A DNA stretch of 64,000 bases from Opitutus sp. GAS368 (GTDB lineage Bacteria; Verrucomicrobiota; Verrucomicrobiia; Opitutales; Opitutaceae): assembly GCA_945906965.1 (NCBI GenBank), contig CAMDRP010000004.1, positions 1-64,000 of the forward strand, written 5' to 3'. The translations under genes and the position numbers were made by a program. Shown piece after piece: positions 1,077 through 38,208 of the stretch. The notes beneath the pieces were generated by a model. That model ran no database searches. It was not told the origin of the DNA and worked only from the letters and a program-made list of their open reading frames with translations. Every line of letters starts with the position of its first letter. Position 1 is the first letter of the stretch.

Positions 1077-4000
1077 ATGCCGCCGCACCGCCCCATTTCG
1101 CTTCTCTCTTTTGCCCTGCCTGCCCTCGGCGCCTCGTTGCTGATTTTTCAAGCCAGTTGCCGCCCCGGCGACCCGCTCACAGGTACCGCCAAGACCCGCG
1201 CGCCAACCCCCGTCACGTCCAAGGTTTCTTTCAACGAACACATCCAACCGATCCTCTCCGAATACTGCTACCACTGCCACGGTCCGGATAAAAACACCCG
1301 CAAAGCCGAACTCCGCCTCGACGTCGCCACCGACGCTTTCGCTCCGCGCAAAAACGGCCCCGCCATCGTCAAGGGTCAGCCCGAGAAAAGCGCGGTGGTC
1401 ACGCGCCTGTTTTCAAAAGACCCCGAGGTCGTCATGCCGCCCCCTGAGGCACACAAGACGCTCAAGCCCGGAGAAATCGCCCTACTCCGCCAGTGGATCA
1501 GTGAAGGCGCGGTGTACGAAGACCACTGGGCCTTCATCGCGCCGCAACGCCCCGCCGTGCCCACGCTCGCACAGACGCAGCTTAAAATCCAAAACCCCGT
1601 CGACGCTTTCATTTTTGCCCGGCTCGAAAAAGAAAATCTCGCGCCCTCGCCCGCGTCCGACCGCGCCACATTGATCCGCCGCGTCACCTTCGATCTCACC
1701 GGCCTCCCACCCACTCCGGCCGAAGTCGCCGCTTTCCTCGCCGACCCCGCGTCCGATGCCTACGAACGCGTCGTGGAACGCCTCCTCGCCAGCCCGCGCT
1801 ACGGCGAACACCGAGCGCGCTACTGGCTCGACTACGCGCGCTACGGCGACACCCACGGTCTGCATTTCGACAATTACCGGGCAATCTGGCCATACCGCGA
1901 TTACGTCATTCGCGCGTTCAACGCCAATAAACCCTTCGACCGCTTCGTCCGCGAGCAACTCGCCGGCGACCTCCTTCCCGCCAAGAACATCGACGAACTC
2001 GCCGCCACCGGCTTCGTGCGCTGCAGCGTCACCACCAACGAAGGCGGCACCGTCACCGAAGAAGTAGCGATGAATCTCGCCCGCGACCGCGTGGAGGCCT
2101 TTGGCGCCACCTTCCTTGGCCTCACCACGGGCTGCGCGGCCTGCCACGACCACAAGTTCGATCCCATCACGCAAAAAGACCATTTCCAACTCGTCGCGTT
2201 TCTCAACAACACCGCCGACAAACCCTGGGATTTCAACATCGAGGCACCACTCCCCATCCTCCGCGTCCCCACCGAATCCGCCCTACCCGCCGTCAACGCC
2301 GCCCTCGCCGAACGCGCCGCCCTCGAAACGCGCCTCAACGAGCTCCGTCAAAATTCCTCCTCTGCGATCAAGACCTGGCTCGCCAGCGGCGCCCGCCCGC
2401 AAGCCGTTTCTCCCGCCGGCCTCGAGTTGCGCCTCCGCTTCGACGAAGCCAAAGGCGACATCGTAACCAATGCCTCGCCGCTCGCCGGCACTGCCCTCCC
2501 TACCACATTTAAAGCCGACACCAACCCCCTCATCTGGGGTGAATCTTCGTGGTTCTGGCCCAGCGTGCGCTTCGATATTTTTACCCGCCTGCCCCTCGGC
2601 CGCACCGGTGACGTCGACGCCCAAGAAGCGTTTTCCGCCGGCGGTTGGTTCATGCCCCGCGGCAAACCCGGCGGCGGCGGCACGGGCGACGGCGCCTTGC
2701 TCTCACGTTATCACTCACCTGAAAAAGGTCCGGGCCGCGGCTGGGAAATCTTCTTCGAGAAAAATCGCCTCGTCATCAACCTCGCCGACGGCCCGGCTGG
2801 TCGCGCCCTTACCATCGTCTCCCGCGACGTCCTCCCCAACGGCGATTGGCAACACGTCTTCTTCACTTACGACGGTTCCCGCCGCGCCGCCGGCCTACAA
2901 ATTTATTTCAACGGCAAAGCGATCCGCCGCACCGTCCGCAGCGACAACCTCGATCCGCGGCGCCCACTGCTCACCCCCGCCGCCCCGTTACGTTACACCG
3001 ACAGCGAACCTCTTCGCAATGGCAGCGCGCCCGACATCCGCCTTTTCCGCCGCACCGCGCTCGAATCCCAACTCTCCAGCCTCACTACGATTCGCACCAC
3101 CGCGACCACTTATTTAGGGCGCCGCGATGATTCTGATCCGCTGCGCGAAGGCCGCTTCCAAGACATCCGCTTCTACCGCCGCGCCCTGGCCGTCGATGAA
3201 GTCGCCCGCCTGCCCTTCGAAGATATCGCCGCCGAAATCATCGCGCGTCAGCCTGAACCCACCCACTGGACCACCGACGAAGCCTTTGTCGTCGCCGAGA
3301 AATTCTTCCTCGGCCAGATCGACGCCGAAGCGAAAAAAATCACCGCTGAGCTCGCCGTCCTCGACAACCGCATCGACATCCTCACGCGCGGCGGCGCTCC
3401 CACCCTCGTCGCCCGCGAACGCGCCCAACCCGCCTACGCCGATCTCCTCAAACGCGGCGATTACTTCGCCCGCGAAGAACGCGTCGCACCGGGCACCCCG
3501 CACTTTTTGCCACCGCTGCCCGCCGGCGTGCGCCCCGATCGCCGCGCTCTCGCTGAGTGGCTCCTCACCCCCGAGCAACCGCTGCTTACCCGCGTCACCG
3601 TCAACCGCATGTGGCAGGAAGTTTTTGGCCGCGGCCTCGTCGAGACCGCCGGCGATTTCGGCATCATGGGCGCACGGCCCTCACACGCCGAGCTGCTCGA
3701 TTGGCTTGCCGTCGAGTTCCGCGAGAGCGGCTGGGATGTGAAAAAATTCTACCGCACTCTCGTCACGTCCGCGACCTACCGCCAATCCGCCACCGTGACT
3801 CCGGCACTCCTCGCCGCCGATCCCGGCAACAAACTCCTCGCCCGCGGCCCGCGCTTCCGCATGGACGGCGAGATGCTCCGCGACGCCGCGCTCGTGACCT
3901 CGGGCCTCCTCGTCGAAAAAATCGGCGGCGCCCCCGTCAAACCTTACCAACCGCCCGGTCTGTGGGAAGAAGTAGCGATGCCCGAATCCAACACCAAGAA

Positions 4001-4481
4001 ATACGTCCCCGGTACCGGCGAAGACCTCCACCGCCGCAGCGTGTACACGTTTTGGAAACGCGCCTCCCCGCCGCCGAGCTTGGAGACATTCGACGCCACC
4101 TCGCGGGAATTTGTCTGCGTCCGCCGCGCGCGCACCAACACGCCCTTGCAGGCCTTCGTCACGATGAACGACCCGCAATTCGTCGAAGCCGCTCGCAAGC
4201 TCGCCGAGCGCGCCGTCGCTAGTTCGCCCGACGCCACGGCCCGCCTCGACACCCTCGCGCATCTCACGCTCGGCCGCGCGCTCAAACCCACCGAACGCAC
4301 CGCCCTCGAACGCACGCGCGCCACCTTCGCCGCTTACTACGAAAAAAATCCCGCGGAAGCCCGTGCCCTGCTCACCGTCGGCGAAACGCCCGTCGGAAAA
4401 AACCTCGATCCCGTTGAACTCGCGCAATGGACACTCGTCTCCAGCCAGTTCTTTAACCTCGACGAATTTCTCACCAAGTAA
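1077..4481 (+). CDS. PSCyt1-PSCyt2-LamG-PSD1 multidomain c-type cytochrome protein
   Basis: An exported 1134-residue protein of the planctomycete/verrucomicrobial cytochrome family. In order: N-terminal hydrophobic export signal (about residues 7-28); PSCyt1 with a heme motif C64-YH-C67-H68; PSCyt2/DUF1549 (about 165-380), with its own CAACH at 353-357; a LamG/concanavalin-like region (about 460-700); and PSD1/DUF1553 (about 820-1120). The CxxCH motifs predict covalent heme binding outside the cytoplasm. The LamG part is absent from the paralogue at 6068 and suggests polysaccharide or surface contact (inference). It lies 11 bp before a DUF1501 gene, the standard partner. The molecular function of this family is not established; roles in complex carbohydrate use or extracytoplasmic electron transfer have been proposed. 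Confidence 0.9.
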   Translation: MPPHRPISLLSFALPALGASLLIFQASCRPGDPLTGTAKTRAPTPVTSKVSFNEHIQPILSEYCYHCHGPDKNTRKAELRLDVATDAFAPRKNGPAIVKGQPEKSAVVTRLFSKDPEVVMPPPEAHKTLKPGEIALLRQWISEGAVYEDHWAFIAPQRPAVPTLAQTQLKIQNPVDAFIFARLEKENLAPSPASDRATLIRRVTFDLTGLPPTPAEVAAFLADPASDAYERVVERLLASPRYGEHRARYWLDYARYGDTHGLHFDNYRAIWPYRDYVIRAFNANKPFDRFVREQLAGDLLPAKNIDELAATGFVRCSVTTNEGGTVTEEVAMNLARDRVEAFGATFLGLTTGCAACHDHKFDPITQKDHFQLVAFLNNTADKPWDFNIEAPLPILRVPTESALPAVNAALAERAALETRLNELRQNSSSAIKTWLASGARPQAVSPAGLELRLRFDEAKGDIVTNASPLAGTALPTTFKADTNPLIWGESSWFWPSVRFDIFTRLPLGRTGDVDAQEAFSAGGWFMPRGKPGGGGTGDGALLSRYHSPEKGPGRGWEIFFEKNRLVINLADGPAGRALTIVSRDVLPNGDWQHVFFTYDGSRRAAGLQIYFNGKAIRRTVRSDNLDPRRPLLTPAAPLRYTDSEPLRNGSAPDIRLFRRTALESQLSSLTTIRTTATTYLGRRDDSDPLREGRFQDIRFYRRALAVDEVARLPFEDIAAEIIARQPEPTHWTTDEAFVVAEKFFLGQIDAEAKKITAELAVLDNRIDILTRGGAPTLVARERAQPAYADLLKRGDYFAREERVAPGTPHFLPPLPAGVRPDRRALAEWLLTPEQPLLTRVTVNRMWQEVFGRGLVETAGDFGIMGARPSHAELLDWLAVEFRESGWDVKKFYRTLVTSATYRQSATVTPALLAADPGNKLLARGPRFRMDGEMLRDAALVTSGLLVEKIGGAPVKPYQPPGLWEEVAMPESNTKKYVPGTGEDLHRRSVYTFWKRASPPPSLETFDATSREFVCVRRARTNTPLQAFVTMNDPQFVEAARKLAERAVASSPDATARLDTLAHLTLGRALKPTERTALERTRATFAAYYEKNPAEARALLTVGETPVGKNLDPVELAQWTLVSSQFFNLDEFLTK

Positions 4482-4492
4482 CCGCCCGCGCC

Positions 4493-6046
4493 ATGTCCGC
4501 TCCCTACGATTCCCACGACCTCTGCTCCGACCACGGCGGCGAAAACCCCACGATCTGGCACCTCCCCGTGCCTCAATCGCTCAAGGACGAATGGCTGCGC
4601 CTCGAGACCCGCCGCCACTTTCTCGGCCGTTCCGGTAAAGCCCTCGCTTGGGCCGGCCTCGCGAGCATCGTAGGCCGCGGCACTTCGTCCGCTCGCGCCG
4701 CCAGTCATCCCGCCGACGGCGCCACGCTCGCCGCGCAACTCCCGCACTTTGCGCCCAAAGCCAAACGCGCCATTTATCTTTTCATGGCCGGCGCGCCATC
4801 GCAGCTCGAGACCTGGGATTACAAGCCCGGTCTCCAATCTCTCTTCAACACCGACCTGCCCGAATCCGTCCGCGGCGGCCAGGTTCTCACCGGCATGACC
4901 GCCAGCCAAGCGCGGCTGCCCGTAGCCCCGAGTTTTTATAAATTCGCCCAACACGGTCGCGCCGGCCACTGGGTCTCTGAGCTCTACCCTTGGACCGCGA
5001 AAATCGCTGACGAACTCACGGTCATTAAATCCCTCCACACCGAGGCGATTAACCACGAGCCGGCGATTCTCCAGCTCACCACCGGCAACATGTTTCCCGG
5101 TAAACCTTCGCTCGGCTCGTGGCTCTCCTACGGCCTGGGCGCCGTCAACGACGAGCTCCCGACCTTCGTCGTGCTCACCTCAAAGATGCCCGTCACGCGC
5201 AACGTCCAGGCGCTCTCCAACCGCCTCTGGGCTTCCGGTTTTCTATCACCCGAATACGCCGCAGTGGCCCTCCGCTCCGGCGGTGATGCGGTCCTGCACT
5301 TGAGCAACCCGCCCGGCGTCAACAGCGACCTCCGTCGCGCTATGATCGACGGCGTCAACGACGTGAACCGTCAGCTCTACGAAACCGTGGGCGACCCCGA
5401 GACCAACGCCCGCATCGCCCAATACGAACTCGCCTTCCGCATGCAGACCTCCGTGCCCGAGCTCACGGATTTCTCCAACGAGCCCGCTTCCACGTGGGAC
5501 CTCTACGGCCCCAAGGCCAAAGAGCCCGGCACCTTCGCCTACAACTGTCTCATGGCCCGCCGTCTCGCCGAACGCGGCGTGCGTTTCACTCAAGTTTTTC
5601 TCCGCAGCTGGGACAACCACAACCTGCTCCCCGAGAACATCAAAACACTCTGCGAAGACTCCGACCGTCCCACCTACGGTCTCATCACCGACCTCAAACG
5701 CCGCGGTCTCCTCGACGACACGCTTGTCATCTGGGGCGGGGAATTCGGCCGCACGGTCTATTCGCAAGGCACGCTCAAGCCCAACGATTATGGCCGCGAC
5801 CACCACCCACGCTGCTTCAGCATGTGGATGGCCGGCGCCGGCATGAAACCCGGCCTCAGCTACGGCCAGACCGATGATTTCTCCTACAACATCGTCAAAG
5901 ACCCCGTCCACATCCGCGACCTCCACGCGACGATCCTCCACCAATTCGGTCTCGATCACGAACGCCTGTCCTTCAAATTCCAAGGCCTCGACCAGAAACT
6001 CACTGGCGTCCTCCCCGCCAAAGTCATCACCGATTTACTCGCCTGA
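4493..6046 (+). CDS. DUF1501 family protein (first copy)
   Basis: A 517-residue protein of the DUF1501 family, related to the alkaline phosphatase/sulfatase fold. Before the domain there is a TRRHFLGRSGKALAWAG segment (about residues 40-56), a twin-arginine-like export signal placed unusually far in. Conserved stretches include APSQLETWDYKPG, TEAINHEP, LAERGVRFTQVF, the histidine-bearing WDNHN and IWGGEFGRT. It starts 11 bp after the first PSD1 gene and ends 21 bp before the second, so all four genes are probably one transcript. No enzymatic activity can be assigned from sequence alone. Confidence 0.9.
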   Translation: MSAPYDSHDLCSDHGGENPTIWHLPVPQSLKDEWLRLETRRHFLGRSGKALAWAGLASIVGRGTSSARAASHPADGATLAAQLPHFAPKAKRAIYLFMAGAPSQLETWDYKPGLQSLFNTDLPESVRGGQVLTGMTASQARLPVAPSFYKFAQHGRAGHWVSELYPWTAKIADELTVIKSLHTEAINHEPAILQLTTGNMFPGKPSLGSWLSYGLGAVNDELPTFVVLTSKMPVTRNVQALSNRLWASGFLSPEYAAVALRSGGDAVLHLSNPPGVNSDLRRAMIDGVNDVNRQLYETVGDPETNARIAQYELAFRMQTSVPELTDFSNEPASTWDLYGPKAKEPGTFAYNCLMARRLAERGVRFTQVFLRSWDNHNLLPENIKTLCEDSDRPTYGLITDLKRRGLLDDTLVIWGGEFGRTVYSQGTLKPNDYGRDHHPRCFSMWMAGAGMKPGLSYGQTDDFSYNIVKDPVHIRDLHATILHQFGLDHERLSFKFQGLDQKLTGVLPAKVITDLLA

Positions 6047-6067
6047 TCGCCCCGCGGCGTCCCGCGC

Positions 6068-8557
6068 ATGTTAAAATTTCTTCCGCTACTTCTCCTCGTC
6101 GCCCTCGTGCCCGCGCCCGCCGCGCCGGCACCAGCACCTCCGCCGATTGACTACACCCACGACATCCGCCCCATCCTCGCGGAAAACTGTTTTTACTGCC
6201 ACGGCCAAGACGCCACTAAACGCGAAGCCAAGCTCCGGCTCGACACCCACGAGGGCCAACTAGCCAACGAAGTCGTCGTTCCCGGTAAACCCAACGAAAG
6301 CGAACTCATTGCCCGCATCCTCTCGAACGAAGAAGACGAGCAGATGCCCCCCGCCGATTCCCACCGCGTCCTTACCGCCGCGCAAAAAGACACCCTGCGC
6401 CGCTGGGTCGCCGAGGGCGCGCCGTTTACCCCGCATTGGACGTTCTCCGCCCCCACGCGACCGAACCCGCCCGGCGTTCGCGCCGAAAAGTGGATTGAAA
6501 ATCCGATCGACCGTTTCGTGCTCGCTCGCCTCGAAACCGAAAAACTTGCCCCGTCGCCCGAGGCCCCGCGCGCGACGTTGATCCGCCGCGTCAGCCTGGA
6601 TCTCACCGGCCTCCCGCCCACGCCCGCCGAACTCGCCGCCTTCCTCGCCGACAAAAAACCCGGCGCCTACGAACGTCTCGTGGATCGCCTCCTCGCCTCC
6701 CCGCACTACGGCGAACGCATGGCGCTGCCCTGGCTCGACGCCGCCCGCTACGCCGATTCCAACGGCTTCCAACAAGACGGCGACACCTTCCAGTGGATTT
6801 GGCGCGACTGGGTCGTCCGCGCCCTCAACGCCAACCAACCCTTCGACCAATTCAGCATCGAGCAACTCGCCGGCGACCTCCTAACCAACCCCACCATCGA
6901 CCAACGCATCGCCACCGCGTTCAACCGCAACCACCTCCTCAACGGCGAGGGCGGCGCCATCCCCGAAGAACAGCGCCACGTCACCCTCTTTGACCGCGTC
7001 GACACCACCTCCACCAACTGGCTCGGCCTCACCGTCGCCTGCGCCCAATGTCACGACCATAAATTCGACCCCATTACCCAGCGCGATTATTACTCGCTGC
7101 TCGCAGCATTTAATAACGTCCCTGAAACCGGCCTAGTCGGTGGTTCCTCTTACAAAGTCCGTACCGCTGCGCCCGTTCTCGACCTCGCCACGCCCGAACA
7201 CAAAGCCCAACTCGCCGCTGTCGAGGCCCGCCTCGCCGCCCTCAAATCCGACGAACTCCTCGTCAAACTCCGAGGTGAGTGGGAAGCCCAGATTGCCACC
7301 GACGAAACCTTTCCCGTCCCCGCCCTCCGCGCCGCCGCCGCGCGCCCCGCCAAGGAGCGCCCCGAGCTCGAAAACGGCGATCTCCGTCGCTACTTTTTCA
7401 AACACGGTCTCGCCAAGGTCCATCCCGAGCTCGCCCAACTGCTCGCCGATCTCGCCCGCCTCAAAGTCGACGACTACCCGCGCGTCATGGTCATGGACGA
7501 CAGCAAACCCCGCGACACGTTCATCCTCGACCGCGGCAACTACGAGACGCGCCTCGATCAAGTTTCCTTCGCTACGCCTGAGTTTCTTCCACCGCTCCCC
7601 GCTGATGCACCGCGCAACCGCTTGGGCCTCGCGCGCTGGCTCATGAGTCCCGCGCAACCGCTCACCGCCCGCGTCATCGTCAACCGCCAATGGCAGACGT
7701 TCTTCGGCCTCGGCCTGGTCAAAACCAGCGAAGACTTCGGCGTGCAAAGCGACCCACCCGTTCACCAAGAATTACTGGATTGGCTCGCCGTGGAATATCG
7801 GGACGGCGGCTGGAACACCAAAGCTCTCCATCGCCTCATCGTCACCAGCGCCACCTATCGCCAAGCTTCCCGCGTCACACCCGCGCTGCTCGAACGCGAC
7901 CCAGAAAATCGCCTCTACGCGCGCGGCGCCCGGATTCGTCTGCCCGCGATGGTAATCCGTGACCAAGCCCTCGCCATCTCCGGGCTCCTCGTCGATCGCC
8001 TCGGCGGCAAACCCGTTTATCCCTACCAGCCCGCCGACATCTGGGACTCGCTCGCGATCACCAAAGAGCGCGACTTCACGTACCCGCAGTCCACCGGCGA
8101 AGACCTCTACCGCCGCAGCCTGTACACGTTCTGGCGCCGCACCGTGGCGCCTTCCAATATGTTCGACGCCTCCGCGCGCAACACCTGCATGGTCCGCACC
8201 GCGATCACCAGCACACCACTGCACGCGCTCACCACGCTCAACGATCCGACCTTTATCGAGGCCGCCCGCGCCCTCGCCGCCCGCACGCTCCGCGCCGCGT
8301 CCTTCCGCGACACGCGCCTCGCACACGCCTTCCGCCTCGTGCTCGCCCGCGACCCCGATGCCGCCGAGAAAAAACTGCTCCGCACCAGCCTCGAAAAACA
8401 ACTCGCCCGCTTCACCGCTGATCCCGCCGCCGCCCAAGCGTTTCTCACGGTCGGCGCCATCCCGCGCGATCCCGCTTTCTCCACCGCCGAACACGCCGCG
8501 TACACCGCCGTCTGCCTCGCGCTCCTCAACCTCGACGAAACGCTGACCAAATCATGA
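6068..8557 (+). CDS. PSCyt1-PSCyt2-PSD1 c-type cytochrome protein (second copy)
   Basis: An 829-residue paralogue of the 1077 gene product without the LamG region. A Sec-type signal peptide (about residues 1-20, LPLLLLVALVPAPAA) leads to PSCyt1 with C41-FY-C44-H45, PSCyt2/DUF1549 with CAQCH at 325-329, and PSD1/DUF1553 (about 515-810) with RVIVNRQWQTFFG and the STGEDLYRRSLYTFWRR-type motif shared by both copies. The stop codon overlaps the ATG of the next DUF1501 gene (ATGA at 8554-8557), so the two are translationally coupled. Likely an exported redox protein acting with its DUF1501 partner; substrate unknown. Confidence 0.9.
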   Translation: MLKFLPLLLLVALVPAPAAPAPAPPPIDYTHDIRPILAENCFYCHGQDATKREAKLRLDTHEGQLANEVVVPGKPNESELIARILSNEEDEQMPPADSHRVLTAAQKDTLRRWVAEGAPFTPHWTFSAPTRPNPPGVRAEKWIENPIDRFVLARLETEKLAPSPEAPRATLIRRVSLDLTGLPPTPAELAAFLADKKPGAYERLVDRLLASPHYGERMALPWLDAARYADSNGFQQDGDTFQWIWRDWVVRALNANQPFDQFSIEQLAGDLLTNPTIDQRIATAFNRNHLLNGEGGAIPEEQRHVTLFDRVDTTSTNWLGLTVACAQCHDHKFDPITQRDYYSLLAAFNNVPETGLVGGSSYKVRTAAPVLDLATPEHKAQLAAVEARLAALKSDELLVKLRGEWEAQIATDETFPVPALRAAAARPAKERPELENGDLRRYFFKHGLAKVHPELAQLLADLARLKVDDYPRVMVMDDSKPRDTFILDRGNYETRLDQVSFATPEFLPPLPADAPRNRLGLARWLMSPAQPLTARVIVNRQWQTFFGLGLVKTSEDFGVQSDPPVHQELLDWLAVEYRDGGWNTKALHRLIVTSATYRQASRVTPALLERDPENRLYARGARIRLPAMVIRDQALAISGLLVDRLGGKPVYPYQPADIWDSLAITKERDFTYPQSTGEDLYRRSLYTFWRRTVAPSNMFDASARNTCMVRTAITSTPLHALTTLNDPTFIEAARALAARTLRAASFRDTRLAHAFRLVLARDPDAAEKKLLRTSLEKQLARFTADPAAAQAFLTVGAIPRDPAFSTAEHAAYTAVCLALLNLDETLTKS

Positions 8558-10002
8558 ACCCTCTCAGCGAAGCGCATCTCCAACTCACCCGCCGCCAATT
8601 TTTCGGCCGCAGCGCCACCGGCGTCGGTGCCGCTGCGCTCACGTCGTTGCTCAACTCCGACGCCCTTGCCGCGCTCACCGCCTCCGGCAACGGCCTCCCG
8701 CATTTCGCGCCCAAGGCCAAACGCGTGATTCTGCTCTGGCAGGGCGGCGGCCCATCCCAGGTCGATCTCTTCGACTATAAACCCGGCCTCGAAAAACTCC
8801 GCCTCCAGGAACTCCCCGAGTCCGTCCGCAGCGGCAATCGTCTCTCGACGATGACCGCCTCGCAGAAAAAATTCCCCATTCTGCCGGCGCTGAAACCGTT
8901 CAAGCAATACGGCCGCTCGGGTCGTTGGCTAAGCGAGTTACTCCCACACATCGGCGGCTTGTCCGACGAGATGTGTCTTATTCGCTCGATGCGCACCGAG
9001 GCCGTCAACCACTCGCCCGGCGTCACGTTTTGCCTCACTGGCTCCCAGATTCCCGGCCGCCCGAGCATGGGCTCATGGCTCACCTACGGCCTCGGCTCGC
9101 TCGCGGCCGATTTGCCATCGTTCGTCGTCATGACTTCCTCCGACCGCGAAAAAACCTGCGGCCAACTCTTCTACGAACATTACTGGGGCAGCGGCTTTAT
9201 CCCTTCTAAATTCCAAGGCGTGCGCCTCCGCAGCGAGGGCGAACCCGTCCTCTACCTCAACGACGCCCCCGGCCTCGACCGCACCCAGAAACGCGCCCTG
9301 CTCGACGACATCGCGAGCCTCAATCACCACCAACTCGATCTCCACGGCGACCCCGAGACCGACACCCGCATCGCCCAATACGAGATGGCGTTTAAGATGC
9401 AGGCGAGCGTCCCCGGACTCCTCGAGCTCGATAAAGAATCTCCCGCGACCCTCGCCAGCTACGGCCCCGACGTGAACCGCCCCGGCAGCTACGCGCGCAA
9501 TTGTCTGCTCGCCCGTCGCCTCGCCGAACGCGGGGTACGTTTCATCCAGCTCATGCACGGCGGCTGGGATCAACACCGCAATCTGTCCACGCAACTCGAG
9601 ATCCAGTGCCGCGACACCGATCAACCCACCGCGGCTCTCATCCACGACCTCAAACAGCGCGGCCTGCTCGAAGACACGCTCGTGATTTTCGCCGGTGAAT
9701 TCGGCCGCACGGTTTTCGTGCAAGGCGACATCACCAAACGCGACGGCCACGGCCGCGACCACCTCGGCTCCGCGTACAGCACGTGGATGGTTGGCGCCGG
9801 CGTGAAACCCGGCATCGCCTATGGCGAGACCGACGACTTCAGTTACAACGTCGTCAAAGACCCCGTTCACGTCCACGACTGGCAAGCGACGATCCTCCAC
9901 CTCCTCGGTATCGACCACCAACGCCTCACCTACCGCTACCAAGGCCGCCAATTCCGCCTCAGTGATGTGCACGGCGAAGTCCTCCGCGGCCTGCTCGCCT
10001 AA
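8554..10002 (+). CDS. DUF1501 family protein (second copy)
   Basis: A 482-residue paralogue of the 4493 product, beginning in the overlap with the preceding cytochrome gene. The N-terminus carries a twin-arginine-type signal (LTRRQFFGRSATGVGAAAL, residues 11-29). The DUF1501 core keeps GGGPSQVDLFDYKPG, TEAVNHSPG, LAERGVRFIQ, GGWDQH and FAGEFGRT, so the probable metal-binding histidines and aspartates are present in both copies. The two copies differ mainly at the N-terminus: the first has about 35 extra residues before the arginine motif. Confidence 0.9.
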   Translation: MNPLSEAHLQLTRRQFFGRSATGVGAAALTSLLNSDALAALTASGNGLPHFAPKAKRVILLWQGGGPSQVDLFDYKPGLEKLRLQELPESVRSGNRLSTMTASQKKFPILPALKPFKQYGRSGRWLSELLPHIGGLSDEMCLIRSMRTEAVNHSPGVTFCLTGSQIPGRPSMGSWLTYGLGSLAADLPSFVVMTSSDREKTCGQLFYEHYWGSGFIPSKFQGVRLRSEGEPVLYLNDAPGLDRTQKRALLDDIASLNHHQLDLHGDPETDTRIAQYEMAFKMQASVPGLLELDKESPATLASYGPDVNRPGSYARNCLLARRLAERGVRFIQLMHGGWDQHRNLSTQLEIQCRDTDQPTAALIHDLKQRGLLEDTLVIFAGEFGRTVFVQGDITKRDGHGRDHLGSAYSTWMVGAGVKPGIAYGETDDFSYNVVKDPVHVHDWQATILHLLGIDHQRLTYRYQGRQFRLSDVHGEVLRGLLA

Positions 10003-10047
10003 AGCCTTTTTTTTCTCCTTAATCCCAACTCGAACCCCTCCTCCCCT

Positions 10048-11100
10048 ATGCAAACTCGTCGTTCCTTCCTCACTCAAGTCGCCGCCACCGCGGCCGTCAG
10101 CGCGATCTCCGCGCCGTTCATCCGTGCCGCCGACAAAGCTGGCTCCGGTCAACTCATCACCGGCACCGGCGCCCACCGCTACGAGATGATCCACGATTGG
10201 CTCACCGCGCCCGAAGGCCTCGTCTGGGGCGACACCCAAGGCCTCGCCCAAGATAGCCAGGGCCTTATCTACGTCGCCCACACCGTCAACAACACCTCGA
10301 TGCGCCCCGAGGCCATCGTTGTTTACGACGCGAAAGGTAAATTCGTCCGCGCCTTCGGCGACGACATGCGCGGTGGCGCCCACGGCCTCGGCGTCCGCAA
10401 GGAAGGCAACCGCGAGTTTCTCTACCACTGCGACACCACGCGCTGCAAAGTCATCAAGACCACCCTAACCGGCGAAGTCGTCTGGTCCAAAGGCTACCCA
10501 CGCGAAGACGCTGCCTACGGCGCCGCGCCCATCAAATTCATCCCAACCAACATCGCCTTCGCACCCAACGGCGATTTCTACATCGGCGACGGCTACGGCT
10601 CCTACCGCATGCTTCGCTACTCCATCGACGGTAAATTCCTCGGCGAGATTTCCTCGCCCGGCAAAGGCGACAACGAAATCAGTAACCCCCACGGCCAATA
10701 CGTCGACACCCGCGGCAAGGACCCCGTCCTCGTCATCGCCGACCGCGGCAACCGCCGCATCCAGACCTACACGCTCGACGGCAAACACCTCCGCACGATC
10801 AAAGACGACACCAAGCTCCGCCAACCCTGCCATTTCGACGTGCGCGGCGACCTGATGCTCTGCCCCGACCTCGACAGCCAGGTCTGCCTTATCGACAAAG
10901 ACTATAACGTCATCGCCCAACTCGGCGACGGCATCGCGCACAACGGCAAGACCGGCTCCCGCCGCTCGCAATCACGCGCCGAGTACACGCCCGGAGAATT
11001 CATCACGCCACACGGCGCAATCTTCCTCAACAACGGCGATATCCTCGTCGCCGAATGGCTGCCCATCGGACGCCTCACGCTCCTGCGTAAACTCGCCTAA
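10048..11100 (+). CDS. Exported NHL-repeat (six-bladed beta-propeller) protein
   Basis: A 350-residue protein with a twin-arginine signal (TRRSFLTQVAATAAVSA) and a beta-propeller built of NHL-type blades, seen as repeated GxxxxP-G-x-x-Y/I-x-x-x-D-x-x-N-x-R-I/L units such as APNGDFYIGDGYG and DPVLVIADRGNRRIQTY. Comparable proteins are annotated as peptidylglycine alpha-amidating lyase-like or as generic NHL proteins. It follows the DUF1501 gene by 45 bp with no terminator between, and precedes a strong terminator, so it probably closes the cytochrome operon. The enzymatic role is unknown. Confidence 0.8.
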   Translation: MQTRRSFLTQVAATAAVSAISAPFIRAADKAGSGQLITGTGAHRYEMIHDWLTAPEGLVWGDTQGLAQDSQGLIYVAHTVNNTSMRPEAIVVYDAKGKFVRAFGDDMRGGAHGLGVRKEGNREFLYHCDTTRCKVIKTTLTGEVVWSKGYPREDAAYGAAPIKFIPTNIAFAPNGDFYIGDGYGSYRMLRYSIDGKFLGEISSPGKGDNEISNPHGQYVDTRGKDPVLVIADRGNRRIQTYTLDGKHLRTIKDDTKLRQPCHFDVRGDLMLCPDLDSQVCLIDKDYNVIAQLGDGIAHNGKTGSRRSQSRAEYTPGEFITPHGAIFLNNGDILVAEWLPIGRLTLLRKLA

Positions 11101-11154
11101 GGATTCACCTGTAGGCAGGGTGACCCCACCCCGCTTCGCTCCGCTCCACGCGTA

Positions 11155-11183
11155 GGGCAGGTCTCGAGACCTGCCCTTTTTTT
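11155..11183 (+). terminator. Rho-independent terminator with a fully palindromic stem
   Basis: A perfect 22-bp palindrome (11155-11176, arms GGGCAGGTCTC / GAGACCTGCCC) is followed by seven T (11177-11183). It lies 54 bp after the NHL gene stop and 13 bp before the next ATG. The GC-rich 50 bases before it also look non-coding. Confidence 0.85.
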
Positions 11184-11196
11184 CCGCTCCCTCTAA

Positions 11197-12672
11197 ATGT
11201 CCGTTCCCGCCACCAAATCCAAGCTCTTGCCCCGCCTCACCGTCGCCGCCGCGCTCAGCGCCGCCACGGTCACCGCCGCCTTTGCGTTTGCGCCCGACGG
11301 CATCGCCCACGGTGGCGGGCTGCGCTTACTCGGACGGCTGCATCCGCTACTCGTTCATTTTCCCATCGCGCTCCTGCTGCTCGTTCCGCTTTTAGAAATT
11401 CTCGGCCGTCGCCGCGCCGCGCTCCGCGAATCCGCCGGTACGGTTCTCACGCTTAGTTTAATTGGCGCCGTGCTCTCCGTCTTCGCCGGCCTCGCCCTCA
11501 TGCGCGCCGATGGCCACGAAGGCGCCACCTTGGAAAATCACCTCTGGGGTGGCGTCGCCGTTGCCGTGGCCACCGCGCTGGCTTGGCTCACACGCGGTCG
11601 CTCGCGCATCCTCTATGTTCTCTCGCTCGCCGCGAGTCTCAGTGCGCTCGCATGGGCCGCCCACCAAGGCGGCTCGCTCACCCACGGTGAAGATTATCTG
11701 ACCGAGCCCCTCCCGCCGGCGGTTAAAAAAATCCTGCACATCCGCGAAAAACCCGCGGCTGAAACCTACGCCACCGACACCGTCTTTGGCGGCGCCGTCC
11801 GACCCATCCTCGAGAAACACTGCTTCTCCTGCCACGCCGCGGATAAAGAAAAAGGCGATTACCGCATGGACACCTTTGCCGCGCTACTCGCCGGCGGAAA
11901 ATCTGGCAAACCCGCCATCACGCCCGGCGACACCGCCAAGAGCGAACTCCTTCAACGCATGCTCCTCGATCTCACCGATGAGAAAGTCATGCCGCCGAAG
12001 AAAAAAGCCCGGCCCACCGCCGCCGAGATCGCCCTGATTCGTTGGTGGATCAAGCAAGGGGCGTCGCGCGATACGCTCATCACCTCCGTCAAAGAAGCAC
12101 CGCTCGAAATCACCGCGCTCCTCGCTGGCCCCAGGCTATCCGTCACCGCACCCGCCGCGCCCACGTATCAACCCCGCGTCGGTGATTACAGCGCACTCCG
12201 CAGCCAGATCATCGCCCTAGAGAAAAAGCTTCACGTTAAAATCACACCCGTCTCCGCCCGCACCGGTGACGGCCTCGCGCTTCAGACTCGCGGCGCCGAA
12301 AAAACCTTCGGCGATACCGAACTCGCCGCCCTAGCCCCTCTCGCCGCGTTCATGGTCGAAGCCGAACTTGGCGGCACGCGCCTGACCGACGCCAGCCTCG
12401 CCACGTTGAAAACCTTCGTCGCCCTCGAGCGACTCAACCTCGAGCGCACCGCCCTCACCGGCGCCACGCTCGGTGAAGTCCGCGCCTTTAAAAAACTCAG
12501 CTACCTCAACCTCTGTTCGACCGCCGTTACCGACGACACGCTCACCGCACTCACCGGCGCTCCCGCGCTTCGCCAACTCTATCTCTTCGGCAGTAAAGCC
12601 ACCCCGGCCGGACTCACGCGCCTCCGCGCTGCCCTACCGAAGACTGATATCGGCGAACTGACCGCGCCTTAA
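11197..12672 (+). CDS. DUF2231 membrane domain - PSCyt1 cytochrome - leucine-rich repeat fusion
   Basis: A 491-residue protein with an N-terminal hydrophobic signal, then a DUF2231-type membrane region with about four helices (roughly residues 45-155, starting LHPLLVHFPIALLLLVPLLE), a PSCyt1-like heme region with C209-FS-C212-H213 and the family's PPKKKARPTAAEIALIRWWI ending, then leucine-rich repeats (about 370-485; LERLNLERTALTGATL, LSYLNLCSTAVTDDTL). It follows the terminator closely and so is probably expressed separately from the DUF1501 pairs. The order suggests a membrane-anchored cytochrome with an exposed protein-binding domain; function inferred only from domains. Confidence 0.85.
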   Translation: MSVPATKSKLLPRLTVAAALSAATVTAAFAFAPDGIAHGGGLRLLGRLHPLLVHFPIALLLLVPLLEILGRRRAALRESAGTVLTLSLIGAVLSVFAGLALMRADGHEGATLENHLWGGVAVAVATALAWLTRGRSRILYVLSLAASLSALAWAAHQGGSLTHGEDYLTEPLPPAVKKILHIREKPAAETYATDTVFGGAVRPILEKHCFSCHAADKEKGDYRMDTFAALLAGGKSGKPAITPGDTAKSELLQRMLLDLTDEKVMPPKKKARPTAAEIALIRWWIKQGASRDTLITSVKEAPLEITALLAGPRLSVTAPAAPTYQPRVGDYSALRSQIIALEKKLHVKITPVSARTGDGLALQTRGAEKTFGDTELAALAPLAAFMVEAELGGTRLTDASLATLKTFVALERLNLERTALTGATLGEVRAFKKLSYLNLCSTAVTDDTLTALTGAPALRQLYLFGSKATPAGLTRLRAALPKTDIGELTAP

Positions 12673-35120: not shown

Positions 35121-36131
35121 ATGGCCAAACCCAGCATCCTCACCACCACCGTCGGCTCCTATCCAGTTCCAGACTGGCTCGCGGCCCTTCCTTCCGAGCA
35201 AGCCGTCATCGACGCCACGCGCGTCGTTTTCGATATCCAACACCAAGCCGGCATCGACCTCCCCACCGACGGCGAGCTCTACCGCTTTGACGTCAACCAC
35301 CCTGACACCAACGGCATGATCGAATACTTCATTCGTCCCATGTCCGGCATCAACGGCCAGGTCGGCCGCTCCATCACCGAAGAATTCTCCCGCCATCATC
35401 CGATGGGGTTCCGCCGCAAGCCCGCTGGCGTCGTCACCGGCGCCCTCGGCGAAGGCTCCCTTAACTTGCTCGCCGATTGCCAACGAGCCGCCTCCGTCTC
35501 CGGCGGTGACTTCAAGTTCACGGTCACGAGCCCCTACATGCTCGCGCGCACGCTGCTCGACCACCACTACGGCAGCTTCGACAAGCTCACCATGGCCCTC
35601 GGACACGTCCTCGCCGCCCAGATGCCCGGCCTCCCCGCCGCCTGCGTCCAAGTCGACGAAGCCAACATCCCCGGCAATCCCAAAGACGCCCCCCTCGCCG
35701 CCGCTTCGATGAACCTCGTCCTCGACGCCATCGACAACAAGACCGAGCGCGCCGTCCACTTTTGCTTCGGCAACTACGGCGGTCAGACGATCCAGAAGGG
35801 AAACTGGAAAGCCCTCCTCGATTTCCTCAACGCCCTCCACACCGACCACCTCGTTCTCGAACTCGCCCACCGTCCCGCCAGCGACCTCGATGCCCTCAAA
35901 CACATCGACAAGAAAATCGCCCTCGGCGTCGGCGTGATCGACATCAAGGTGAACCACATCGAGACCGCCGACGAAGTCGCCGCGCGCATCGAAGCTGTGG
36001 AAAAGAAAGTCGGCCCCGGCCGCGTGAAGTGGGTCCACCCCGATTGCGGTTTCTGGATGCTCAAACGCTCCATCGCCGACCGCAAAATGGAAGCCCTCGT
36101 CCTCGGCCGCGACAAATACCTCGGTCGCTAA
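35121..36131 (+). CDS. MetE C-terminal-like (cobalamin-independent methionine synthase II) protein
   Basis: A 336-residue TIM-barrel protein matching only the catalytic half of MetE. Zinc-site residues are visible as H-x-C in AVHFCFGNYGG, a downstream glutamate, and the cysteine in HPDCGFWML; the N-terminus TTTVGSYPVPDWL is typical. Such core proteins use various methyl donors and thiol acceptors. The gene follows a Rieske oxygenase and precedes a terminator, so the two may act in sequence on one compound (inference). Confidence 0.85.
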   Translation: MAKPSILTTTVGSYPVPDWLAALPSEQAVIDATRVVFDIQHQAGIDLPTDGELYRFDVNHPDTNGMIEYFIRPMSGINGQVGRSITEEFSRHHPMGFRRKPAGVVTGALGEGSLNLLADCQRAASVSGGDFKFTVTSPYMLARTLLDHHYGSFDKLTMALGHVLAAQMPGLPAACVQVDEANIPGNPKDAPLAAASMNLVLDAIDNKTERAVHFCFGNYGGQTIQKGNWKALLDFLNALHTDHLVLELAHRPASDLDALKHIDKKIALGVGVIDIKVNHIETADEVAARIEAVEKKVGPGRVKWVHPDCGFWMLKRSIADRKMEALVLGRDKYLGR

Positions 36132-36160
36132 ACCGCCCGCGGTTGACCGCGTTTACCGCA

Positions 36161-36188
36161 GGCCGCGCCTCACCGCGCGGCCTTTTTT
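36161..36188 (+). terminator. Rho-independent terminator after the MetE-like gene
   Basis: Perfect 8-bp stem GGCCGCGC (36161-36168) / GCGCGGCC (36175-36182), six-base loop, then six T (36183-36188). It lies 29 bp after the stop codon. The stem is inside the left copy of the 43-bp repeat. Confidence 0.85.
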
Positions 36189-36204
36189 GCACCCAGCCGC
36201 CGCG
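36162..36204. repeat. Direct repeat copy 1 left of the RelE TA module
   Basis: Matches 36812-36854 at 39 of 43 positions, exactly 650 bp apart. Read leftward it encodes RRLGAKKAAR followed by TGA, a variant of the last codons of the ceramidase-like gene (RQLGAKKTAR, TGA) that lie in copy 2. It is therefore a displaced copy of that gene's 3' end, and also forms the terminator stem. Confidence 0.85.
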
Positions 36205-36213
36205 TGCCTCGCG

Positions 36214-36248
36214 TTGACACCCGTGTGAGCGCACTACACCTGTAGTGC
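36214..36248 (+). promoter_or_regulatory. Promoter/operator of the RelE TA module
   Basis: A consensus TTGACA (36214-36219) is followed by a palindrome with perfect 8-bp arms, GCACTACA (36231-36238) and TGTAGTGC (36241-36248), which ends on the base before the ATG. A possible -10 (TACACC, 36235-36240) lies inside it, with a short 15-bp spacer. Binding of the antitoxin here would block the promoter. There is no room for a Shine-Dalgarno sequence. Confidence 0.65.
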
Positions 36249-36557
36249 ATGAGCTCCGCGACTGTTCCCACCTCAATTCGGCTCACCGCCGCCGAGAAAC
36301 GCCGCATCGCTATCGCCGCCCGCAAACGTGGCCTGAGCCCCGCCACCTACATAAAGCGTGTCGCCCTCGAAAGCACCCAAAGCTCCATCACCAGCGACGC
36401 CAAACTCGAACGCCTCGCCACCCTCGTGCGCTCCGTCTACGATGCCGTCGAAGACGAAATCGACTACCGCGCCGCCGCCGCCGCTTGGGGACGTCACCTC
36501 AAAAGCGGAGCCAAGACCATGAGCGGCGAGGAGGCTCGTCATGCGTTGGGACTTTGA
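36249..36557 (+). CDS. Ribbon-helix-helix-like antitoxin of a RelE module
   Basis: A 102-residue protein with an N-terminal DNA-binding region (TSIRLTAAEKRRIAIAARKRGLSPATYI, residues 7-34) like RHH/CopG-type antitoxins, and a C-terminal acidic part that should hold the toxin. It starts directly at the operator palindrome and overlaps the toxin gene by 17 bp. The module lies between two copies of a 43-bp repeat. Confidence 0.85.
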   Translation: MSSATVPTSIRLTAAEKRRIAIAARKRGLSPATYIKRVALESTQSSITSDAKLERLATLVRSVYDAVEDEIDYRAAAAAWGRHLKSGAKTMSGEEARHALGL

Positions 36558-36810
36558 ACTGAGCCCTGAGGCGGTCAAACAGCTTGAGAAAATCGGCCCT
36601 TCGGCCGCAGAGAGTATTTTAGGGTTTCTCGAAAAACGCATCCGTGGCGCTGCAGATCCAATGGCCTTCGGCAAAGCCCTTCGCGGCGAGCTCAAGGGTT
36701 TTTGGCGCTACCGCGTGAAAGACTACCGCATACTCTGTCGAATCGAGGAGTGCCGCGTCGTTGTCATAGTTATCGCCGTCGGCCACCGCTCGAGCATTTA
36801 CGAAGACTAA
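36541..36810 (+). CDS. RelE/ParE-family toxin
   Basis: An 89-residue toxin of the RelE superfamily: start WDFELSPEAVKQLEKI, central GKALRGELKGFWRYRVKDYRILC, and the closing VIAVGHRSSIYED where GHR near the C-terminus is usual for RelE/StbE toxins. Basic residues of the probable active surface (R, K, H) are all present. It starts inside the antitoxin gene (17-bp overlap), so translation is coupled. Intact. Confidence 0.9.
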   Translation: MRWDFELSPEAVKQLEKIGPSAAESILGFLEKRIRGAADPMAFGKALRGELKGFWRYRVKDYRILCRIEECRVVVIVIAVGHRSSIYED

Positions 36811-36811
36811 A

Positions 36812-36854
36812 GCCGAGCCTCACCGCGCGGTCTTTTTTGCGCCCAGCTGCCGCG
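36812..36854. repeat. Direct repeat copy 2 right of the RelE TA module
   Basis: The second copy, two bases after the toxin stop. It contains the real stop and last ten codons of the ceramidase-like gene on the other strand. The terminator stem is weaker here because of one mismatch, but the T-run is kept. Confidence 0.85.
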
Positions 36855-38208
36855 CCAACTTGGCCAACGCTCGGATCAAGTCCTGATCCACTCGCGCGTA
36901 CGGCAACTCACCCATCATCAGCGGCACAAAATCATCCGAATAACCTGCCCTCCGCTGCGCCGCCGCATCCGGTGCGTAGCCGTTGCCACCAACTAAGCTC
37001 ACGACCCAGGTGGCCACGTGCGGACTGTTTTTCAAAATCACCGACTGCAAGCTGTGGTACACTTCCAGCCCGCAGCCCAACAACGCCACCGGCCCGATCC
37101 TCAAACCATGCACGCGTACCGGCGGATTTGGCGCCACCCGCCCGCGCCACTCCGTGAGCAACGCCCGCATACCCTGTAACCGGGCCATCTCCATCCCGCG
37201 AGTGTGCAAAGGCGGTAACCCGCCAGCGTGGGGAAAATCTGTCACGCCGGCTTCGGTGAAAATCTTTTCCAAAGCCGACACCCGCTTGAGTACCCGAGCC
37301 TTCGACCAAGCCACGCGAGTAAATTTAATTTCATCACTCACGTTAACCAAAGCGTTAGCCGCGCACGCGACCGGTCGCGCCACGCGCAATCCACGCGCCA
37401 CCGCGCCTACATACTGACGCGCGATCGCGTTCAAGGCCCGCCGCGATTCCCGCGGTACGCGGTGGTTCAACTTCGGGTTAACATCGCCCAGCGCTCCCGG
37501 CAAAAAAATCGCCACCGCACCCGCGTGCTTCGCTTCCAGTTGGATCGAGGCCAGTCCGACAAAATCCCCGTGAATCGCCGCGGTTTTTTCGCCATAAACA
37601 ACCGGGTGACAGCCGAAATGGTGGAGCAACCCGACCAGTTTTCCGCCCGCACCATACGCTGCCAACACGCGTACGGTCGGGTCCGTCTGCTCGGGCTTTG
37701 CCGGCCGCCAACGAAGATTCATCCGCTCCGCAAAATTCGCGTTCAGCGCAAAACCCGTGTCTGTCTCGCGGTTCACAGCAATGCCTTCACACGCGACGTG
37801 TGCGTGTCGCCACTCGACCTCGGCCAGCGCTGCCTTAGCACGGACCGCTGCTTCGGCCGCCCGTGCGGGCAATGTCTCCAAATAAACCGCATCCGGCTCA
37901 CCCCACCCAAACATCCCGCCGACCGAGGGCGCACTGTGCGTGTGCGTAGAAGACAAAAACACCTCATCCGCTCGGCAACCCACGCGCGCAGCGACAGCCG
38001 CGCGAATGCGCTCGGCCAAGGGCCGCGGCGTTCCACACAACTCCAGACTCAGCAACACGACATTCGTTTTTCCGTCACGGATCACTGCCGCACGCGCCGC
38101 AAGGGGCGCGACGATTTCCTGCGCCGCGCGGTTGCGGTACGGCCCGTAGCCAGCCAATTGAACGCCTAGGCGCGGCGTGAGGTCGCTCTTGCCGAAGCCC
38201 GCTTTCAT
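36820..38208 (-). CDS. Neutral/alkaline ceramidase-like hydrolase
   Basis: A 462-residue protein of the neutral/alkaline non-lysosomal ceramidase superfamily. Visible motifs: the N-terminal AGFGKSDLTPRLGVQLAGYG, the metal-binding SSTHTHSAPS (HxH) and LLHHFGCHPVVYG, and FLPGALGDVNP. There is no signal peptide, so it is probably cytoplasmic, and its substrate need not be ceramide. Its ATG overlaps the stop of the aminotransferase gene (ATGA at 38205-38210 region), so the two are coupled. Its last codons are duplicated 650 bp downstream, on the far side of the TA module. Confidence 0.85.
   Translation of the reverse strand: MKAGFGKSDLTPRLGVQLAGYGPYRNRAAQEIVAPLAARAAVIRDGKTNVVLLSLELCGTPRPLAERIRAAVAARVGCRADEVFLSSTHTHSAPSVGGMFGWGEPDAVYLETLPARAAEAAVRAKAALAEVEWRHAHVACEGIAVNRETDTGFALNANFAERMNLRWRPAKPEQTDPTVRVLAAYGAGGKLVGLLHHFGCHPVVYGEKTAAIHGDFVGLASIQLEAKHAGAVAIFLPGALGDVNPKLNHRVPRESRRALNAIARQYVGAVARGLRVARPVACAANALVNVSDEIKFTRVAWSKARVLKRVSALEKIFTEAGVTDFPHAGGLPPLHTRGMEMARLQGMRALLTEWRGRVAPNPPVRVHGLRIGPVALLGCGLEVYHSLQSVILKNSPHVATWVVSLVGGNGYAPDAAAQRRAGYSDDFVPLMMGELPYARVDQDLIRALAKLARQLGAKKTAR

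Follow-up and report, generated by a model that had tools for sequence, protein, structure and literature searches.

Toxin–antitoxin modules between long direct repeats in an Opitutus genome: probable transposase-free insertions with target duplication

Chromosomal toxin–antitoxin (TA) modules are patchily distributed and clearly transferred between genomes, usually without mobility genes, and the way in which they move is a long-standing question. A locus of Opitutus sp. GAS368 poses this question in a compact form, as a RelE-type TA pair is enclosed there by two long direct repeats that carry the end of a neighbouring gene. How could such a pair have come to lie between two copies of the same sequence? 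The window analysed is a stretch of 64,000 nucleotides (assembly GCA_945906965.1, contig CAMDRP010000004.1, positions 1–64,000 of the forward strand). Its genome is designated G000, with contigs denoted by C numbers, and its relatives are labelled G001–G012 and onwards. All of these genomes are metagenome-assembled drafts; the agreement of several independent assemblies argues against an assembly artefact.

A toxin–antitoxin cassette between two copies of a gene junction

The left neighbour of the cassette is a metE-like gene (Meth_synt_2; positions 35,121–36,131, forward strand; PF01717, 2.2e-15), which adjoins the repeat in nine members of the genus. Copy 1 of the repeat (36,162–36,204) combines the intrinsic terminator of metE with a detached copy of the 3′ end of a ceramidase gene, and a terminator scan places the stem-loop of a strong intrinsic terminator at 36,160–36,183. 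The insert that follows (36,205–36,811, forward strand) is a minimal TA cassette of 607 bp with no terminal inverted repeats. Copy 2 (36,812–36,854), found after the toxin stop, comprises the last 10 codons and the stop of a neutral ceramidase-like gene on the reverse strand (36,820–38,208; PF04734, 1.6e-14), upstream of which lies a gene for a DegT-type aminotransferase. The repeats, the TA pair between them and the gene end that they carry had been described in the initial annotation, and they were confirmed: by alignment the 43-bp copies are identical at 39 of 43 positions (91%) and lie 650 bp apart around the TA pair, copy 2 holds the ceramidase end as stated, and by translation copy 1, read leftward, encodes RRLGAKKAAR and a stop.

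A repeat of comparable score was obtained at 0 of 300 random window positions, which argues against a chance pairing, and no second pair of this class occurs anywhere in the 64-kb window. The 24-nt core has a single other match in the whole genome at three or fewer mismatches, a terminator-like sequence on contig C15. The 43-bp sequence is thus not dispersed without TA modules, and the idea of a dispersed repeat or repeated terminator was rejected, as the core occurs only here and at this one partial site. No known RNA family was detected in the region.

The toxin gene (36,541–36,810, forward strand) is predicted to encode a member of the RelE/StbE family, with matches to PF05016 (ParE_toxin; 2e-15) and to the NCBIfam model TIGR02385 for RelE/StbE (37.1 bits against a cut-off of 27.9; 3.4e-09); the nearest solved structure is 2khe (3.5e-19). 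Its reading frame overlaps that of the antitoxin, and its stop codon ends 1 bp before copy 2. The antitoxin (36,249–36,557, forward strand) is RelB-like, with a NikA-like match in its N-terminal part (PF21983, 1.7e-07) and a DUF6290 match in its C-terminal part (PF19807, 4.6e-07). Directly 5′ of its start, the sequence contains the palindrome CACTACA-CC-TGTAGTG (36,232–36,247), which is conserved in G009, G003 and G012 and is probably an autoregulatory operator. The toxin score, the overlapping operon and the palindrome before the start resemble RelBE/ParDE type II modules, whereas the NikA-like N-terminus of the antitoxin and its match to the RelB model NF046040 (1.4e-07), which lies under the cut-off of that model, set it apart. 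A TTGACA box situated 9 bp inside the insert (36,214–36,219, forward strand) could be a −35 element. The cassette had been described as carrying promoter, operator, antitoxin and toxin; the two genes are borne out, and an operator-like palindrome and the TTGACA box are visible, but a consensus scan of the cassette found neither a −10 consensus nor a complete sigma-70 promoter.

The repeat had been taken for a duplicate of the ceramidase gene end, a description that is correct but incomplete, as the duplicated stretch is the metE terminator fused to that end. A hairpin of the same type is located 3′ of metE in the congeners G005, G007 and G008, where there is no ceramidase gene, so the repeat is primarily the terminator of metE. 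The C-terminal tail of the ceramidase-like gene, GAKKxAR followed by a stop, reads through the terminator sequence; distant relatives end at or near LARxL and do not have this tail. Copy 1, on the metE side, carries the ceramidase-like coding sequence RxLGAKKxAR. The presence of the ceramidase-like RxL codons in this copy suggests that the junction of metE, terminator and ceramidase existed before it was duplicated by the insert.

The junction in related genomes

The order metE–repeat–TA–repeat–ceramidase is found on a single contig in G012, G009, G003 and the Umea bin (L084 = G074), and the same layout is split over two contigs in G002. The two copies in G009 are identical (42/42). The contig of the Umea bin (G074:C55) is approximately 97% identical at this site and belongs to an assembly assigned to another genus, possibly through misbinning. 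When the junction was compared across the relatives, none was found that lacks the TA pair and keeps both repeat copies, the combination that the initial annotation had named as speaking against an insertion.

In G006 the junction reads metE–repeat–ceramidase, with one repeat copy and no TA pair. The flanking sequences of this genome are closest to those of the TA-bearing G012, and approximately unbiased (AU) tests rejected a basal position of G006, whether relative to all carriers (p=0.0001) or only to the clade of carriers that it belongs to (p=0.039). As G006 nests among carriers, its clean site is more likely to reflect a precise repeat-to-repeat deletion, or the import of an allele, than the ancestral state, and the tree tests disfavour G006 as a simple pre-insertion ancestor. 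The single copy agrees with the left copy in bases at its start and with the right copy in one base close to its end; this would fit a crossover between the copies, and it would fit an ancestral allele as well.

The genome G007 carries a ParE-type remnant directly after the metE terminator, with neither the ceramidase gene nor a second repeat. A TA module at this spot may therefore predate the present layout, and the history of the locus may exceed a single insertion. In G008 (L071) and G005 (L073), a vapC-like and a vapB-like gene, recognized by eye, lie right after the metE terminator on the opposite strand. Together with the G007 remnant, these pairs make it possible that the 3′ flank of metE is a hotspot for TA modules in the genus.

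Further toxin–antitoxin pairs between unrelated repeats

A census of direct repeats was made over 1.40 Mb of the home genome, blind to TA content, with a repeat length of at least 30 bp, an identity of at least 85% and a spacing of 300–2000 bp. It returned 12 loci, which were divided into coding and non-coding ones after the list had been viewed; five are coding paralogs or repeats within genes. Six of the remaining seven enclose a TA pair, of the types RelBE, ParE-type, Phd-PIN, HigBA-like, BrnTA and VapBC, and are numbered here as sites 1 to 6, with the RelE-type pair of the window as site 1. If a density of one TA module per 50 kb is assumed, a random interval of such size would be expected to include a module in no more than a few percent of cases. 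The TA genes are the open reading frames found between the repeats at the six sites; the Pfam assignments of the BrnA and VapB-like antitoxins are weak. The suggestion that the genome might hold other TA modules with duplicated flanks was thus borne out at five sites besides the first.

The repeats of the six sites are unrelated to one another, with a longest shared word of 8 nt, and they range in length from 37 to approximately 130 bp. The inserts measure 580–941 bp and contain little beyond the TA pairs. None of the six shows terminal inverted repeats above the level of shuffled ends, and at sites 1 and 2 no recombinase gene was found, as the repeats there enclose only TA genes.

Site 2, on contig C22, which had first emerged from a survey of TA loci, holds a ParE-type pair between repeats of 53 bp (51/53 identical). 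The site is empty, with one repeat copy and no TA, in G006 (C114) and on one contig of G009 (C179); it is filled on another contig of G009 (C167) and in G003 (C74), there with an internal deletion. One base in the repeat is common to the two empty alleles and absent from every filled copy, so these alleles may be truly ancestral. That the G009 assembly holds a TA-bearing and a TA-free allele suggests a mixture of strains or a population polymorphism. Relatives of the site 2 cassette are present elsewhere in G012 and G001 (85–87% nucleotide identity), and a more distant one in G007 (73%).

Site 3 lies upstream of pgi (L192 (G000:C22) 3119–4213; L193 4005–4766; L196) and has repeats of 77 bp, which enclose a Phd-PIN pair in the home genome and a HicAB pair in G009 and G003. 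The 37-bp repeats of site 4 (L225 (G000:C18) 10665–11550) flank a HigBA-like pair, composed of a RelE-type toxin fragment and an HTH antitoxin; at the same location in G012 (L184, G012:C146, 1519–3193) there is a ParE-type TA together with a remnant of an integron integrase. Site 5 (L231 (G000:C23) 815–1800) is a BrnTA pair between repeats of approximately 130 bp, and the toxins of sites 4 and 5 are broken by in-frame stops. At site 6 (L211 (G000:C5:60001-73329) 5574–6773), a VapBC pair is bordered by a duplicated 3′ end of ptsI, with a repeat of approximately 91 bp and a further diverged block. G006 and G009 have one copy (approximately 91 bp) and no TA at this position, whereas the site is filled in G012, G002 and G003, and a relative of the cassette (approximately 70% nucleotide identity) is found elsewhere in G010 and G001. 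In total, relatives have single-copy empty sites at three of the loci and another TA at two of them, and two of the cassettes have relatives at other positions.

The proposal that TA modules spread into gene ends in a transposase-free manner is thereby supported in its recurrence, which extends to other TA families, but gene ends are too narrow a description. A gene 3′ end is involved at site 1 and, with ptsI, at site 6, while sites 2 and 3 are on the 5′ sides of genes.

The seventh non-coding locus (L177 (G000:C7) 9616–11536) does not enclose a TA pair; its 36-bp repeats flank genes for an HTH protein and for an ATPase of the AAA_14/DUF4143 type. Immediately outside this locus there is a ParE-type toxin. 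A rule that every TA module has such repeats would be false, as flanking repeats are absent from at least three of the other ParE-type matches in the home genome (on C18, C33 and C7). For G005, a different species of the genus, a 412-kb sample yielded no TA pair between repeats of this kind; that genome contains a perfect 46-bp direct repeat at a gene resembling a type I restriction S-subunit, with copies approximately 1 kb apart and a small open reading frame between them (L260, C1:333001–353000, 11256–12297). Further candidates were set aside: a 40-bp repeat around a TA in another family of the order (L061) looks like a dispersed element, and the repeats at L040/L149 and at L150 are more suggestive of genes duplicated in tandem than of a duplicated target.

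How the cassettes may have arrived

The reading that we favour, with a probability of roughly 0.78, is that the RelE-type pair is a 607-bp cassette that arrived by a transposase-free insertion which duplicated 42–43 bp of its target, and that at least five other TA modules arrived through the same kind of event at unrelated repeats. The initial annotation had proposed as much for site 1, with a cassette of about this size, and the comparisons support it, the step of insertion itself being deduced from its products. An ordinary transposon or MITE is disfavoured, as terminal inverted repeats are lacking and the duplications, at 37 to approximately 130 bp, are not short and of fixed length; with no shared word above 8 nt, a single site-specific recombinase is also unlikely.

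Insertion would have occurred when the repair of a break, or template switching during replication, re-copied a stretch of the target. Ku-dependent end joining was rejected as the route, since Ku was not found in the home genome; the one member of the genus in which it was detected is G007, a genome without the site 1 cassette. As Ku was not found in the other carriers of the locus either, classical non-homologous end joining with fill-in is unlikely. Recombination between the repeats could later bring about exact loss of the insert or a swap of its cargo. As a repeat-flanked insert would be easily lost unless its loss harmed the cell, addictive TA cargo would be what mainly persists.

Nobusato et al. 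(Gene 259:99-108, 2000) are said to have described insertion with long target duplication for restriction-modification systems. The features that characterize such insertions are found here, namely long direct repeats, single-copy empty sites in relatives, repeats that are variable and unrelated, and no transposase or terminal inverted repeat. This mode of insertion is known for restriction-modification systems (PMC3874152, PMC1643837, PMC3031569), with duplications described as being of the order of 100 bp. The likeness extends to the units themselves, which are selfish, addictive gene pairs inserted without a transposase, and to their long and variable flanking repeats, of which relatives have one copy. 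The present cases differ in that they are stand-alone type II TA pairs of several families, with inserts of 0.6–0.9 kb and repeats of 37 to approximately 130 bp. Because the cargo is a type II TA rather than a restriction-modification system, they are best regarded as a variant of insertion with long target duplication and not as plain members. A literature search, which for restriction-modification systems covered citations and reviews, found no report of such a footprint for TA modules that stand alone.

What, then, would connect these insertions with TA genes? It is about an even bet that they are generic accidents with a long duplication and that the TA pairs are visible only through a filter of addiction, with no mobility specific to TA modules. 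The variety of TA families, whose ends and targets are unrelated, fits this explanation, and relatives keep exactly one repeat at three sites, as exact loss predicts. Against it stand the broken toxins of sites 4 and 5, which are retained though unable to addict, so that retention by addiction is not absolute, and the one insert that is not a TA; moreover, sequence alone cannot separate such a filter from TA-specific mobility. The association with TA modules may be explained by retention through addiction rather than by a mechanism dedicated to them. A dedicated route is a rather doubtful alternative, in which a trans-acting host or phage function would insert TA modules at intergenic sites while copying 40–130 bp, and the repeats would later serve as exchange points for the replacement of one TA family by another.

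Tyrosine-recombinase integration usually restores a gene end through the repeat, and the repeats could accordingly be the att cores of an integrase-borne element reduced to its TA pair. The involvement of gene 3′ ends at sites 1 and 6, with direct repeats that restore them, recalls such islands. The six inserts, however, have six repeats that are unrelated to one another, and sites 2 and 3 flank genes on their 5′ side. It is also unlikely that six islands all decayed to sub-kilobase remnants consisting of their TA, with no integrase left at sites 1 and 2, and this origin is considered very improbable.

The odds are likewise long against the TA pairs being integron gene cassettes misplaced by an integron integrase, with the repeats as recombination sites or by-products. 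This possibility draws on the site 2 cassette, a ParE-type relative of which is separated in G012 by approximately 170 bp from the degenerate remnant of an integron integrase, while the copy in G001 ends in an attC-like sequence (GGCTAAC...GTTGAGC, by eye), an 18-bp repeat being present on either side; a full integron integrase is encoded in G011. The flanking repeats are nonetheless target sequence, ordinary and single-copy in the chromosomes of TA-free genomes, and a duplication of 40–130 bp of target is not known from integrase insertion at secondary sites. In addition, no attC-like sequence was noticed by eye at sites 1, 3, 5 and 6, and the home genome has no integron integrase above the cut-off.

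That two copies of a common terminator flank the TA pair by chance, with no duplication by insertion, is barely credible and already largely refuted: the repeat is indeed a strong intrinsic terminator, with similar ones after metE in congeners and one more in the genome, but the identity runs into ceramidase-coding sequence and is complete in G009, the core is not dispersed, and the layout recurs at five other TA pairs, whose repeats have no long word in common with this one.

For the preferred reading, insertion with long target duplication, the significance lies in the finding of several TA families within one genome that share one common footprint, with one-copy empty sites and differences of cargo in close relatives. 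The spread of TA modules is thereby linked to the long-target-duplication footprint of restriction-modification systems. The idea that repeat-flanked inserts are easily lost while addictive cargo stays becomes testable, and it supplies a search rule for any genome, namely long unique direct repeats approximately 0.6–1.1 kb apart. Taken together, these observations suggest a general and reversible route for the spread of selfish TA genes.
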